Shown one piece after another: positions 20,173 through 44,351 of a DNA stretch of 64,000 bases. Under the pieces are notes generated by a model. It was not told where the DNA came from. It did not search any database and saw nothing but the letters and a program-made list of their open reading frames with translations. Source of the stretch: Halegenticoccus soli (lineage in GTDB: Archaea; Halobacteriota; Halobacteria; Halobacteriales; Haloferacaceae); contig NZ_PEND01000007.1 in the NCBI RefSeq assembly GCF_002844195.1, positions 124,001 through 188,000 of the forward strand. Reading direction: 5' to 3'. Made by a program: the position numbers and the translations under genes. Positions within the stretch are counted from its first letter, which is position 1, and each line of letters starts with the position of its first letter.

Positions 20173-21162
20173 CTATTCCGTCCCCTCCATGAGGGCCAGC
20201 GCCTCGATCTGCTCGTGGTAGCGGTTGCGGATCGTCACCATGGTCACCTGCGCGACATCGCTGACCTCCTTTTGCGTCCGCTTTTCGTTGCAGAGCATCG
20301 AGGCGGTGTAGATCGCGGCCGCGGCGCAGCCGGTGGGGGACTTTCCTGAGAGGAGCCCCTCCTCGGTGGCGATGTCGAGCACTTCGCGCGCCTTCGCCTG
20401 AACCTCCTCGTCGAGTTCGAGCTCCGAGCAGAACCGGGGCAGGAACTGCTTGGGGTCGACTGGGCACAGTTCGAGGCCGAGTTCCTGCGAGACGTACCGG
20501 TACGTCCGGCCGATGTCCCGCTTTTCGATCCGCGAGACCTCGGCGACCTCGTCGAGGCTGCGCGGGATGCCCTCCTGGCGGCACGCCGCGTACAGCGCGC
20601 TGGTCGCCATCCCCTCGATCGAGCGCCCGCGGATCAGATCCTCGTCGAGCGCGCGGCGGTAGATGACGGACGCGACCTCGCGGACCGACCGCGGCACGCC
20701 GAGCGCGCTCGACATCCGTTCGATCTCCGAGAGCGCGAACCGGAGGTTGCGCTCCTTCGCGTTCTGCGTCCGGATGCGCTCCTGCCAGGAGCGGAGCCGG
20801 TGCATCCGCTGGCGCTTCTCCGCCGACAGCAGTTGCCCGCTGGCGTCCCTGTTGCGCCAGTCGATCGTCGTGCTCAGCCCGCGGTCGTGGATCGACTCCG
20901 TCAGCGGGGACCCCACCCGCGACTTCTCGCGGTGTTCGCTGTGGTTGTACGCCCGCCACTCCGGACCGAAGTCGATCCGGCTCTCGTCGACGACCAGCCC
21001 GCACTCCTCGCAGACGAGCTCCTCGCCGTCGGAGCTCTTCGTGCACGGCCCGTCGCACTCGGGGCACCGTCGGACGGCGTCCGACCGAGCGTCCGCGTTC
21101 CGTTCGGTCCGCTCCGCGTTTCGTCCGGGCGTTTCGGCCGTCCTGAGCTGATTTTGAGACAT
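20173..21162 (-). CDS. tfb: Transcription initiation factor IIB (TFB)
   Basis: A 329-residue archaeal TFB, which recruits RNA polymerase to TBP-bound promoters. The N-terminal zinc ribbon is [28 protein letters not shown]. Next comes the B-reader/linker region ([38 protein letters not shown]). Two cyclin folds follow: about 135-220 ([20 protein letters not shown]) and about 225-325 ([22 protein letters not shown]), the second ending in a recognition-helix-like [20 protein letters not shown]. Haloarchaea carry several TFB paralogues; the long polar N-terminal extension (residues 1-30) marks this one. A GGGGAG ribosome-binding site lies before the ATG. Confidence 0.95.
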
Positions 21163-21422: not shown

Positions 21423-22277
21423 CTACGTCGTCGCTTCGATGCGAGCCACCGTCGGCTCGCCGTCGTCGACGCGCACGTCGCTCGCCAGCCGGTTCAGCAC
21501 CGTCCCGCCGTCGCGCTCCTGCTCGATCAGGCCCGCCTCTTCGAGCCGAGAGAGGTGGTACGAGACCGTGCCGGGCGTCCGGTCGACCTCCGAAGCCACC
21601 TCCGAGACGGTCGCGGGAGCCAGCCGCGCGACCGCGTCGAGCACCGTCGCGGCGGCGTCGTCGTCCAGGGCGGCGGTGAGCTCGACCCGCTCGGCGCCGA
21701 CCGGGAAGAACCGCTGCTTGCCCCGGATCTTCTCGCCGAAGATCAGCCGCTCCCGTTCGAGCACCTTGATGTGGTACCTGACGGTCGAGCGGGGCGTGTC
21801 AGTTCGCTCTGCGATCTCCGAGACGTACGTTCCCGGCGCGCTCGCGATCGTCTCGTACACCCGCTTTCGGACGTCGTTTTCGAGCGGGCTCGACTCGTCG
21901 TGCCGGCTGTAGCCGAGCAGCAGGACGACCCCGGTCGGGTTGAAGTCGTCGAGCCGACCGCGGAGGACGTACTCGAAGGCGTCGGTCGTCGAGGACGACG
22001 GAGCGAGCTGCGTCCCCCCGTCGTTCCGCTCGGCGATCGAACCCGCGACCGTCGCGGATCCGTGCTGTGGACCGCCGGGGACGGTTGCGCTGAATCCGCC
22101 GGGGACGGTCGCGTCGAATCCGCCGGCGTCGATCGCGTCGACGCCGGAGTGACCGGCGTGATCAGCCGCGTGCGGTTCCTCCTGCGCCGCGGCCGCGAAG
22201 GCCGGGGCCGCCGCGCTCGCGAGCACGAGGACGACAGTGACCGAGACGAGCGCCCTCAGGTACGTCGAGCGTTCCAT
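21423..22277 (-). CDS. Signal-peptide-bearing tandem winged-helix regulator
   Basis: A 284-residue protein. Residues 1-30 form a Sec-type signal or anchor (RALVSVTVVLVLASAAAPAFA). A Gly/Thr/Val-rich linker with a duplicated decapeptide (FDATVPGG / FSATVPGG) follows. Two winged-helix domains come next: one at about 135-200 (ENDVRKRVYETIASAPGTYVSEIAERTDTPRSTVRYHIKVLERERLI) and one at about 205-270 (ATVLDAVARLAPATVSEVASEVDRTPGTVSYHLSRLEEAGLIEQERDGGTVL). Both resemble ArsR/MarR-type DNA-binding units. A paralogue of the same layout lies at 43581-44351. How DNA-binding domains sit behind an export signal is unclear. Confidence 0.8.
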   Translation of the reverse strand: MERSTYLRALVSVTVVLVLASAAAPAFAAAAQEEPHAADHAGHSGVDAIDAGGFDATVPGGFSATVPGGPQHGSATVAGSIAERNDGGTQLAPSSSTTDAFEYVLRGRLDDFNPTGVVLLLGYSRHDESSPLENDVRKRVYETIASAPGTYVSEIAERTDTPRSTVRYHIKVLERERLIFGEKIRGKQRFFPVGAERVELTAALDDDAAATVLDAVARLAPATVSEVASEVDRTPGTVSYHLSRLEEAGLIEQERDGGTVLNRLASDVRVDDGEPTVARIEATT

Positions 22278-22614
22278 GGTGTCTGCGTTTGCTGTGACAT
22301 TCTCTCCTCTCTGCCGGTTCGTTCGCTCTCTCTTTTCCGGTGTCGTGACTACCCTTGTGGTCCCAGTGCTTATAGCCTTCTTGGACCGCCGATCGAAATC
22401 GACGGACGCCGAAACGACCTGCGACGGCCGTCGGCTTCGGGGGGCGACTGTCGTCGGTCGACGGACGCCCGACGCGGTCGTCGGACGACGGCGCAACCGG
22501 CGTCAGTAGGCGGAGTCGGGACACGACCGGCGTCGGGCGACGGAACCGGGACGCGACCCCGCGCGGGTCCCCGGATCTGAGCGCCGCCGGCGCGGTCGCG
22601 GGGACGCCCGAGAA
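22278..22614 (-). promoter_or_regulatory. Promoter and leader of the winged-helix gene; rest without a gene
   Basis: A TATA-like box (minus strand GGCTATAAGC, 22368-22377) predicts a start near 22343 and a leader of about 65 bases. The leader contains a short ORF on the minus strand, ATG 22300 to TGA 22256-22258 (14 codons), which overlaps the real start and has a GGAG site upstream. From 22380 to 22614 I see only GC-rich DNA without a supported gene. Confidence 0.5.
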
Positions 22615-23985
22615 TCAGTACTTCGCTTCGGCGCCGGTCGTCTCGTAGATGCTGTCCATGAGCGCGTCGCGTCCCTCCTGCCAGGCGGCGAGCGCACCGG
22701 GCCGCGTCGGATACCGCCGGTAGTGGTCGATGAGCTCCTCCGCGAGCCGCTTCGTCCGGTAGAAGTTCCAGATCACGCCCCAGTAGTCGCGGCTCTGGAC
22801 AGCCGTCCGGAGCTTCAGCTTCCACCCCATGGACGTCTGCCCGGAGTACAGCGCCTCCGCGAGTTTCTCGCCCGGCAGCGAGGCGAGAAGGCCCATCAGG
22901 TCGTCCACGTCGACGGCCGTCGAGAGGACGTTGTACACGTCCAGCCCGGCGTACCGCGCGCCGAAGTGCTCCATCACCCGCTCGTTGTAGCGCCACAGCG
23001 CCGCCTCGCTCGCGTCGCCCTCCTCGACGGCCCGGACCGCCTGCTCGCCGGCGTAGTTGCCCGCGTACGCCGCACCGGCGATCCCGCCACCGGTGGTGGG
23101 GTTGACGTGGCCGGCGGCGTCGCCCGCGGCCAGAAAGCCCGGCGCGACCGCGGAATCGTACGGCCGCCGCGTCGGCAGCGCCGCCCCCAGCTTGTCCGTC
23201 ACCTTCGCCCCCGCGAACTCCGGTCGGTTCCGCAGGTCCTCCTTGAGGTCCTCGACGAGCTTCATCGGCTCCTCGTTCATCTGGAATCCGAGTCCGGCGT
23301 TGATCTCCGTCCCCGTGCGCGGGAAGTACCACAGGTAGCCCGCGGCGCGCTTCGTCGGCTTGAACACGAGCGCGTCCTTCCACGGCACCTCCTCTCTCAC
23401 CTCGACGATCTCGCGGTAGGCGGAGCAGAACTGCGAGTACGAGACGTTCGTGTCGAACGTCGCCCCCGAGAGGTCGGCCTTGTCCTGGAGGATGGAGAGC
23501 GCGCCCGCGCCGTCGATGGTGACCGCGGCGTCGTACTCGACGACCTCGCCCCTGCGCTTGCCGCGGACGCCCGTCACCCGACCGTCGTCGTCCTGCGTCA
23601 CGTCCTGGACCACCGTGTCGTAGTGGAACTCGGCGCCGGCGTCCTTCGCTCCCTCGATGATCCGCCGGCCGTAGTCCCAGCGGTCGATGACCGCGAGCTC
23701 GCCCGGCACGGGGATCTCGAGCACCGTGTCGTGGGAGGGGATCTCGAACCGGCCGTGGTCGACGCCGGTGTTCGTGAACGCGGGCTCGATCTGCGACTTG
23801 GGGATCGCGTCGGGGAACGCGTCCGCGCCCTTCAGGGCGTCGCCGCAGGCGATGTGCCCCGCCTCCTCCTCGGACTTCCGCTCGACGACGACCACGTCGA
23901 GTCCCTCGTTGGCGACGGTCGCCGCCGCGTAACACCCGGCGGTCCCCGCGCCGACCACCGCGACGTCGCACTCGTAACTGGTCAT
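22615..23985 (-). CDS. Geranylgeranyl reductase family FAD-dependent oxidoreductase
   Basis: A 456-residue flavoprotein of the family that saturates geranylgeranyl chains of archaeal membrane lipids (digeranylgeranylglycerophospholipid reductase) or related isoprenoids. The FAD Rossmann motif is DVAVVGAGTAGCYAAATVANEGLDVVVVE at the N-terminus. The second FAD contact, APGFLAAGDAAGHVNPTTGGGIAGAAYAG, lies near residue 285. The substrate-pocket segment WYFPRTGTEINAGLGFQ matches the family's YxWxFPk pattern. Length is normal. It may act on lipids, menaquinone side chains or carotenoid precursors; haloarchaea have several paralogues. Confidence 0.88.
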   Translation of the reverse strand: MTSYECDVAVVGAGTAGCYAAATVANEGLDVVVVERKSEEEAGHIACGDALKGADAFPDAIPKSQIEPAFTNTGVDHGRFEIPSHDTVLEIPVPGELAVIDRWDYGRRIIEGAKDAGAEFHYDTVVQDVTQDDDGRVTGVRGKRRGEVVEYDAAVTIDGAGALSILQDKADLSGATFDTNVSYSQFCSAYREIVEVREEVPWKDALVFKPTKRAAGYLWYFPRTGTEINAGLGFQMNEEPMKLVEDLKEDLRNRPEFAGAKVTDKLGAALPTRRPYDSAVAPGFLAAGDAAGHVNPTTGGGIAGAAYAGNYAGEQAVRAVEEGDASEAALWRYNERVMEHFGARYAGLDVYNVLSTAVDVDDLMGLLASLPGEKLAEALYSGQTSMGWKLKLRTAVQSRDYWGVIWNFYRTKRLAEELIDHYRRYPTRPGALAAWQEGRDALMDSIYETTGAEAKY

Positions 23986-41797: not shown

Positions 41798-42487
41798 TCA
41801 CGTCCGAACGGCGTACCGTTCGGTGAGGTGATCGAGCACGGCGTCGACGAGATCGGGATCGTAGGTCCAGACCCCGCGGAACCGCCCGTCGTCCCGCTCC
41901 TCGGCGAGCAGCGCGCACTTGTCGCTCGGCACCGCCCCGCCGTCGAAGACGACGAACCAGGTGCGCTCGATCTCCGGCGAGCCGTCGAGGTGGAGCGTCA
42001 CCCCCGCGATGTCGGGCGCCTCGGCGTCCGGGACCGCGTACGCGTGAACGTCGAGATCCGTCCGCGCCAGTCGCTCGTACAGCGCGCGCTGGGATCGAAG
42101 CGCCGACACCGTCTGGAATCCGGCGTGGAGCGAGCCGACGCCGGCCCGCCAGGCGCGATCCTCGATCTCCCTCGACGTCGCGGTCATCTGCCGGGTGTCG
42201 TACGACGAGAACGTCGTCCGGTCGAGGTAGCCGAGCAGTTCGCGGAACGCGTCGGACGGCCCCCGCCCGAGGAGCGCCGGCGCGTCGATCGCCGCGAGCG
42301 CGCGGTCGCCCTCGCTCAGGACCGCGAAACTGTCCGGACCGCCGACCGCCGTCCCCCCCTCGACGACCACCTGCTGCGCGTCGAACTGTTCTGCGAGCTC
42401 CGCGACGGCCGAGGGGCGCGGCGGGTTGAACAGGGTCAGCGTCCGCTCGCGGCGTTCGATGGCGTCGATTATCGCGTGCAGGTCCAT
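41798..42487 (-). CDS. DICT-domain sensory protein
   Basis: A 229-residue protein of the DICT sensory family, found in cyanobacterial and haloarchaeal regulators (related to light or stress sensing). It starts MDLHAIIDAIERRERTLTLFNPPRP, with the conserved EGGTAVGGPDSFAVLSEGDRALAAIDAPALL block and DRTTFSSYDTRQMTATSREIEDRAWRAGVGSLHAGFQTVSALRSQRALYERLA core. No DNA-binding domain is present, so it would need a partner. It has a TATA box with a palindrome at its promoter. Confidence 0.8.
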   Translation of the reverse strand: MDLHAIIDAIERRERTLTLFNPPRPSAVAELAEQFDAQQVVVEGGTAVGGPDSFAVLSEGDRALAAIDAPALLGRGPSDAFRELLGYLDRTTFSSYDTRQMTATSREIEDRAWRAGVGSLHAGFQTVSALRSQRALYERLARTDLDVHAYAVPDAEAPDIAGVTLHLDGSPEIERTWFVVFDGGAVPSDKCALLAEERDDGRFRGVWTYDPDLVDAVLDHLTERYAVRT

Positions 42488-43580: not shown

Positions 43581-44351
43581 TCAGTCCCCGCCGTCGAACC
43601 GCTCGGGCGTCGTCTCCAGCCGGACGATCACCGACCGCCCGTCGCGCTCGCGGTCGACGGCGCCGACCGCCTCGAGCCGGGCGAGGTGGTGCGACACCGT
43701 GCTTATCGCCCGGTCGAGTTCGTCGGCGAGAGCGGACGCGGTCGTCGGCTCCAGCCGATCGACCGCGTCGATGATCGCCGCGGTCCGGTCGTCCTCGAAC
43801 GCCGCCAGGAGCTCGAACTCGTCGATCGGGACCGCCGCCGGGTAGAACCGGTGTTGGCCCCAGATGAGCGCCGAGCGGACGAGCCCCGCCTCCTCCAGCA
43901 CCCGAGCGTGATACCGGACCGTCGACTCGTGACTCCCCGTCTCCTCGACGGCGTCGGCCAGCCGGACGCCGGGGCGTCGGTCGATCAGTCCGTACAGCTC
44001 GGCCCTGCGTGCGTTCTCCAGCGCCTCCGTCGCGTCATCCCGCTGGTACCCCGCCGCGAGCAGAACGCCCGGCACGTCGCCACCCGACGCGACCGCGTCG
44101 AGGGCGCGCTCGACGAGGTCGGCGTCGAACGCGCCGTCCTCGTCGATCCGCGGCGGCGGATCGAGCGGGTGCGATTCGTCGCCGAGTGCCGCGTACGCGG
44201 ATCCGCCGCCGTGATTCGGGACGTGGGGCGCGGCGGTCGCCGTCCCGCCCGGTTCGGCTCTCGCCGCGTGAACGACCGGCGCGACAGCCTGTGCCAGCGC
44301 GACGAGGACGAGCGCGGCGAGCGCCGCGCGTCGGAGCGTCGAACGTGTCAT
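43581..44351 (-). CDS. Signal-peptide-bearing tandem winged-helix regulator (second copy)
   Basis: A 256-residue paralogue of the protein at 21423-22277. It has a Sec-type signal (LRRAALAALVLVALAQAVAPVVHAARA), an acidic linker with LVERALDAVASGGDVPGVLLAAGYQRD, and two winged helices: one at about 115-175 (RRAELYGLIDRRPGVRLADAVEETGSHESTVRYHARVLEEAGLV) and one at about 185-245 (AAIIDAVDRLEPTTASALADELDRAISTVSHHLARLEAVGAVDRERDGRSVIVRLE). The HFYPA/RFFPV strand linking the domains is shared by the two copies. As in the paralogue, DNA-binding domains sit behind an export signal. Confidence 0.8.
   Translation of the reverse strand: MTRSTLRRAALAALVLVALAQAVAPVVHAARAEPGGTATAAPHVPNHGGGSAYAALGDESHPLDPPPRIDEDGAFDADLVERALDAVASGGDVPGVLLAAGYQRDDATEALENARRAELYGLIDRRPGVRLADAVEETGSHESTVRYHARVLEEAGLVRSALIWGQHRFYPAAVPIDEFELLAAFEDDRTAAIIDAVDRLEPTTASALADELDRAISTVSHHLARLEAVGAVDRERDGRSVIVRLETTPERFDGGD

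Follow-up and report, generated by a model that had tools for sequence, protein, structure and literature searches.

Tandem winged-helix proteins behind a predicted export signal in Halegenticoccus soli and other haloarchaea

How should one read a protein whose domains look made for binding DNA and whose N-terminus looks like an export signal? The question is raised by a gene of Halegenticoccus soli that lies in the 64,000-nucleotide stretch of contig NZ_PEND01000007.1 analyzed here (the window). The initial annotation had described two winged-helix domains behind an export signal and had offered two ways out of the difficulty: either the N-terminal helix is an unconventional anchor that leaves the domains inside the cell, or the domains bind something other than DNA.

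The gene, its start and its product

The open reading frame at 21423-22277 on the minus strand, the strand of all features given for this gene, encodes 284 amino acids from an ATG start, and its frame and coordinates were checked and found to be correct. Reading frame, profile matches, structural model and signal all agreed with the layout that had been proposed. We consider the signal and the two intact winged helices to be established from the sequence, with a DNA-binding domain and a predicted hydrophobic segment in one chain. The gene is flanked by a TFB gene (20173-21162) and an FAD-binding oxidoreductase gene (22615-23985), which by its sequence we take to be probably a geranylgeranyl reductase, and the flanks are the same in both Halegenticoccus species. 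For comparison within the genus we used the nearest genome, that of H. tardaugens (NZ_SDIC01000011.1), whose orthologue is 65% identical.

Residues 1-30 (22188-22277) make up a Sec-type signal, MERSTYLRALVSVTVVLVLASAAAPAFAAAAQEEPH, with the positive n-region MERSTYLR, a hydrophobic core and an AXA region, which is the n-h-c pattern with a positive N-tail expected of a Sec-exported protein. The AXA-type residues after the core suggest cleavage. The signal was kept in the H. tardaugens orthologue, and the dN/dS of the signal region between the two genes was 0.60.

If translation in fact began beyond the signal, the product would be an ordinary cytosolic regulator and the layout an artefact of gene calling. 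In keeping with such an error the frame stays open upstream of the gene, and haloarchaeal open frames often run on upstream by chance. However, when we scanned the codons ahead of the winged helices for in-frame ATG, GTG or TTG, we found only codon 1 and codon 18, a GTG within the hydrophobic core; the next was codon 140, within winged helix 1. Because no such codon lies between 18 and 140, a start further down could give a complete cytosolic regulator only from a rarer kind of start codon, and the signal stands. The MERST start is common to both Halegenticoccus species, and of the upstream DNA only the promoter stretch TCCAAGA..CTATAAG is shared, including the TATA-like box CTATAAG at 22369-22375. 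An upstream extension of the open frame was rejected, since conservation with H. tardaugens begins at MERST. An out-of-frame upstream ATG opens a short reading frame, MSQQTQTPWNARRT, at 22300-22256 (minus strand), which overlaps the main start and is preceded by a GAGG-like motif; it was dropped from consideration, being absent in H. tardaugens. In five relatives from one genus (L126, L127, L130, L131 and L133, all of class B as defined below) a TATA-like box lies about 28 nt before the signal ATG, the spacing expected for leaderless starts in haloarchaeal promoters, and the RefSeq start of the Haladaptatus salinisoli relative is the signal methionine.

The signal is followed by a His/Ser/Thr/Gly-rich linker (residues 31-112, 21942-22187) that is disordered in the full-length AlphaFold2 model and fast-evolving, with a dN/dS of 0.73 between the window gene and its H. 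tardaugens orthologue. It contains several His and no Cys. A single conserved linker Cys soon after the signal was seen in relatives of one genus (L031-L034, L037, L041) and in L056. The duplicated TVPGG decapeptide that had been reported here does exist as a repeat, but its unit is an in-frame tandem octapeptide, GF[D/S]ATVPG, present as GFDATVPG and GFSATVPG in two 24-nt units (22098-22121 and 22074-22097; together 22074-22121) that differ by 3 mismatches. The H. tardaugens orthologue lacks the repeat, which falls in the fastest-evolving part of the protein, and we therefore regard it as incidental.

By hydrophobicity and the model, a short hydrophobic patch and hinge, PTGVVLLLGYSRHDESSPLE, occupy residues 113-133 (21879-21941). 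Winged helix 1 follows at residues 134-199 (21681-21878), where the profile HTH_HVO_0163_N matched, with a recognition helix at about 163-175, and the HTH_20/ArsR-like winged helix 2 at residues 200-268 (21474-21680), with a recognition helix at about 235-247. Profiles of winged helix-turn-helix families were matched above their curated cut-offs, among them Pfam PF24266 HTH_HVO_0163_N (51.8 bits against a cut-off of 31) and NCBIfam NF033788 of the ArsR/SmtB family (67.7 bits against 55), and HTH_20 matched two stretches. AlphaFold2 built residues 113-270 as two complete winged helices with a mean pLDDT of 80. A fold search placed each domain near generic winged-helix folds (MarR, ArsR, Fur-type and others) and nothing more specific.

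The recognition-helix core was almost uniform among the class B relatives: S164, T165, Y168, H169, L173, T237, H241 and L242 were conserved in 100% of them, and R167 and S239 in 97%. Between the two Halegenticoccus species dN/dS was 0.25 for winged helix 1 and 0.20 for winged helix 2, indicating purifying selection. Together the conserved recognition helices and the low dN/dS imply that the winged helices are still under DNA-binding constraint. We infer that the domains of the window protein bind DNA and hence must meet the chromosome; with a recognition-helix core that is 97-100% conserved, the suggestion that they bind something else is unlikely.

The paralogue of the same layout that had been noted in the window was found at 43581-44351 on the minus strand, where an open reading frame with profile matches encodes 256 amino acids comprising the signal MTRSTLRRAALAALVLVALAQAVAPVVHA, a linker and two winged helices. 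A gene for a DICT sensory-domain protein lies downstream of it (41798-42487, minus strand). Four other matches in the same genome were soluble HTH proteins, or in one case a protein with C-terminal membrane segments, and none had an N-terminal signal.

Relatives in the order and their membrane orientation

We sought relatives in 392 genomes of the order, of which 103 matched at E<=1e-18, and sorted 114 extracted proteins, the window pair included, by their hydrophobic segments. In class A (n=70) most members have an N-terminal signal; then come a lengthy stretch rich in Thr, Asp and Glu, a second membrane helix (TM2; weak in some members) about 50-90 residues ahead of winged helix 1, and the winged helices. 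Class B (n=36), which includes both window genes, has a signal, a variable linker of 40-110 residues, no second helix, and winged helices; class C (n=8) has no membrane segment. Where relatives are annotated, their names are generic ("helix-turn-helix domain-containing protein", "winged helix-turn-helix transcriptional regulator"). Class A (for example L004, L005, L008 and L071) is a large unnamed haloarchaeal family in its own right and resembles surface-sensing transcription regulators.

Class B is spread over 13 genera in six families. Signal and helices are both kept across these genera although the linkers cannot be aligned, which is the conservation that had been called for as a check. 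This recurrence of a signal joined to tandem winged helices, with the start-codon evidence above, makes a gene-calling artefact very improbable, and we conclude that the layout predicted from these sequences marks a real kind of putative regulator. Classes A and B were almost fully separate in trees, and in a quick tree rooted with soluble outgroups the deepest branches were class B, with weak to modest support on a short alignment. We rejected the idea that class B arose when class A genes decayed recently in Halegenticoccus, given the wide spread of class B and its near-complete separation from class A.

To which side of the membrane do the charges point? Net charge before the signal core exceeded that after it in all 35 class B proteins whose ATG could be assigned, as it did for 64 of 66 class A signals. 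Around TM2 of class A the relation was reversed: in 60 of 70 proteins net charge was lower ahead of the helix than behind it. The segment between the two class A helices held 146 N-glycosylation sequons where 62 were expected (z of about 13). Sequon richness and TM2 charges together support a position of this segment outside and hence of the class A winged helices inside. The same charge rule, with a result opposite to that for TM2, predicts the class B winged helices to be outside, so that charge supports, across class B, the placement first suggested for the window protein. Residues typical of signal-peptidase sites point the same way in the sense that an A.A motif followed the hydrophobic core in 27 of 35 class B proteins, compared with 20 expected from shuffling. 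We found no sequon in the linkers of 19 class B representatives, where 4.9 were expected; this scarcity could reflect avoidance in an exported segment or a plain lack of exposure, and we give it little weight. As far as sequence can tell, the conflict between the predicted placement outside and the conserved DNA-binding residues is real.

Promoters and gene neighbourhoods

Just upstream of a TATA-like box, six class B relatives from Haladaptatus (L040, L069, L073, L074, L075, L080) carry a dyad, TTCR-N12-YGAA, that occurs in background sequence at 0.027 per 200 nt. In one Haladaptatus relative TTCA/TGAA is replaced by TTCG/CGAA on both arms of the dyad, and in another only one arm is changed. 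The dyad could be an operator for autoregulation. It was not found upstream of either window gene, and an operator common to these genes and Haladaptatus was therefore rejected.

Genes for HalOD1, DUF7344 or response-regulator receiver proteins adjoin class B genes in several loci. Some genomes have no HalOD1 gene and others as many as 73, and we take the enrichment of these genes near class B genes, which concerns about three lineages, as no more than suggestive. The Hsp70 co-chaperone gene grpE lies 0.7-2.4 kb downstream of the class B gene, on the same strand, in four genomes from two families, and dnaK follows it in all three of these loci that were read. The linkage was confined to one deep class B subclade, where it occurred in 4 of 6 members (L154, L155, L157 and G334:C1:3258794-3260753); the neighbourhood was not found in Halegenticoccus. 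Class B genes of Halobium and some Haladaptatus have a DUF87/HerA-type ATPase gene no more than a few kb away (L139, L141, L142, L143).

Weighing the readings

The reading that we favor, at a probability of roughly 35%, is that the window protein is a one-component DNA-binding regulator of a haloarchaeal tandem winged-helix family whose activity depends on whether its precursor is exported or inserted into the membrane. This would be a third option beyond the two alternatives of the initial annotation. The precursor would bind its operators in the cytoplasm before the Sec machinery or the membrane captures it, or when it is missed by them; export or insertion would take it off the DNA, and the regulator would thereby report the state of export or of the membrane, with the linker serving as a mere spacer. 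We prefer such export gating because it accommodates both the orientation, which points outside, and the constraint, which points to DNA binding, with the fewest new assumptions. Recognition-helix conservation, low dN/dS in the domains, the retained signal, the Haladaptatus dyad, the regulatory neighbours and the grpE linkage all speak in its favor; the restriction of that linkage to one subclade, the missing dyad at the window genes and the sequon-free linkers speak against it. A strongly hydrophobic signal usually leads to efficient export, and for this reason a functional cytoplasmic pool has to be assumed. A more specific form is an archaeal export-state sensor, in which the Sec signal lets export switch a transcription factor off, so that it acts only when Sec/SRP is saturated or the membrane perturbed. 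This form, which would parallel in its logic ATFS-1 and mitochondrial import (below), is unlikely; the deepest subclade does have the grpE-dnaK chaperone genes as neighbours.

It is also conceivable, if doubtful, that the protein is an exported DNA binder, its signal cleaved or kept as an N-in anchor, with winged helices that act outside on extracellular or incoming DNA as ComEA does. The charge rule, the A.A motif, sequon avoidance in the linker and the nearby DUF87/HerA-type ATPase genes would all fit this. However, class A has the same recognition residues behind an inward-facing TM2, which is hard to square with an external role; the neighbours are mostly signalling rather than uptake genes, and the operator-like palindrome lies at the family's own promoters in Haladaptatus. 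Conserved DNA-binding residues would also fit an uncleaved N-terminus with its short tail outside and the winged helices in the cytoplasm, a membrane-anchored regulator of unusual topology, and regulators with one membrane pass are common (PMC10269533). We nevertheless judge this unlikely, as all 35 class B signals have the charge bias that TM2 of class A, which necessarily faces its domains inward, shows in reverse, and the core is followed by residues of the kind seen at signal-peptidase sites.

A cryptic second pass in class B would restore the inside topology of class A, and the patch before GYSR might supply it: a comparable short patch precedes winged helix 1 in many class B proteins, with marginal span scores in L067, L087 and L088. 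In the window protein, however, the patch is only 8-10 residues long, too short to span a membrane. Class A proteins have such a patch besides TM2, on the cytoplasmic side, and L009 has one although it lacks a signal; the Haladaptatus group and L126-L133 have none. We rejected the patch as a hidden helix on these grounds and regard a cryptic pass of any kind as improbable.

The DNA-binding domain of ComEA, a protein of bacterial competence, is a helix-hairpin-helix. ComEA shows that a DNA-binding domain can sit on the far side of the cytoplasmic membrane (PMC3879209), but the domains of the window protein are winged helices, and competence genes were not seen here. Transmembrane transcription regulators are well known (PMC10269533, PMC6396743); both bacteria and archaea commonly have them, mostly with a single pass (PMC10269533). 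Like the window protein, those of the ToxR/CadC type and ArnR/ArnR1 of Sulfolobus combine a membrane-directing segment and a winged helix-turn-helix in one polypeptide (PMC10269533, PMC6396743). In ArnR/ArnR1 the HTH is in the N-terminal region (PMC13286277), whereas the sole segment of the window protein is its N-terminal Sec-type signal; it has no ectodomain and no second helix, and its charges predict a winged helix-turn-helix outside. Class A relatives share its winged helices, its YSRYDDSDPLE hinge and its N-terminal signal; they differ in the long T/D/E-rich, sequon-rich segment and the second membrane helix. Soluble haloarchaeal tandem proteins (e.g. L010, L012, L016) have related recognition helices, also in tandem, but no signal or membrane segment. 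ArsR/SmtB regulators (NF033788; CzrA, ArsR and CadC folds) match the second winged helix by sequence and fold, while the window protein has two winged helices per chain and an export signal. ATFS-1 of the C. elegans mitochondrial unfolded-protein response (PMC7817664) is alike in logic only, a targeting signal on a transcription factor with failed import as the cue; it is an unrelated eukaryotic protein with a mitochondrial targeting sequence.

In the literature searched, which is not proof of absence, we found no paper describing signal-bearing haloarchaeal winged-helix proteins, and no description of a widespread branch whose export signal is its sole membrane-directing element and appears oriented wrongly for DNA binding. 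If the prediction is right, one of three things follows: archaea have conserved domains for sequence-specific DNA binding on the far side of the cytoplasmic membrane, or a transcription factor is switched by being exported, or the positive-inside rule fails across a whole family. Each of these outcomes would be surprising, and a tractable haloarchaeon would allow each to be tested. The family brings its own control, in that these winged helices occur both behind a second membrane helix and without one, which makes the question an unusually clean one.
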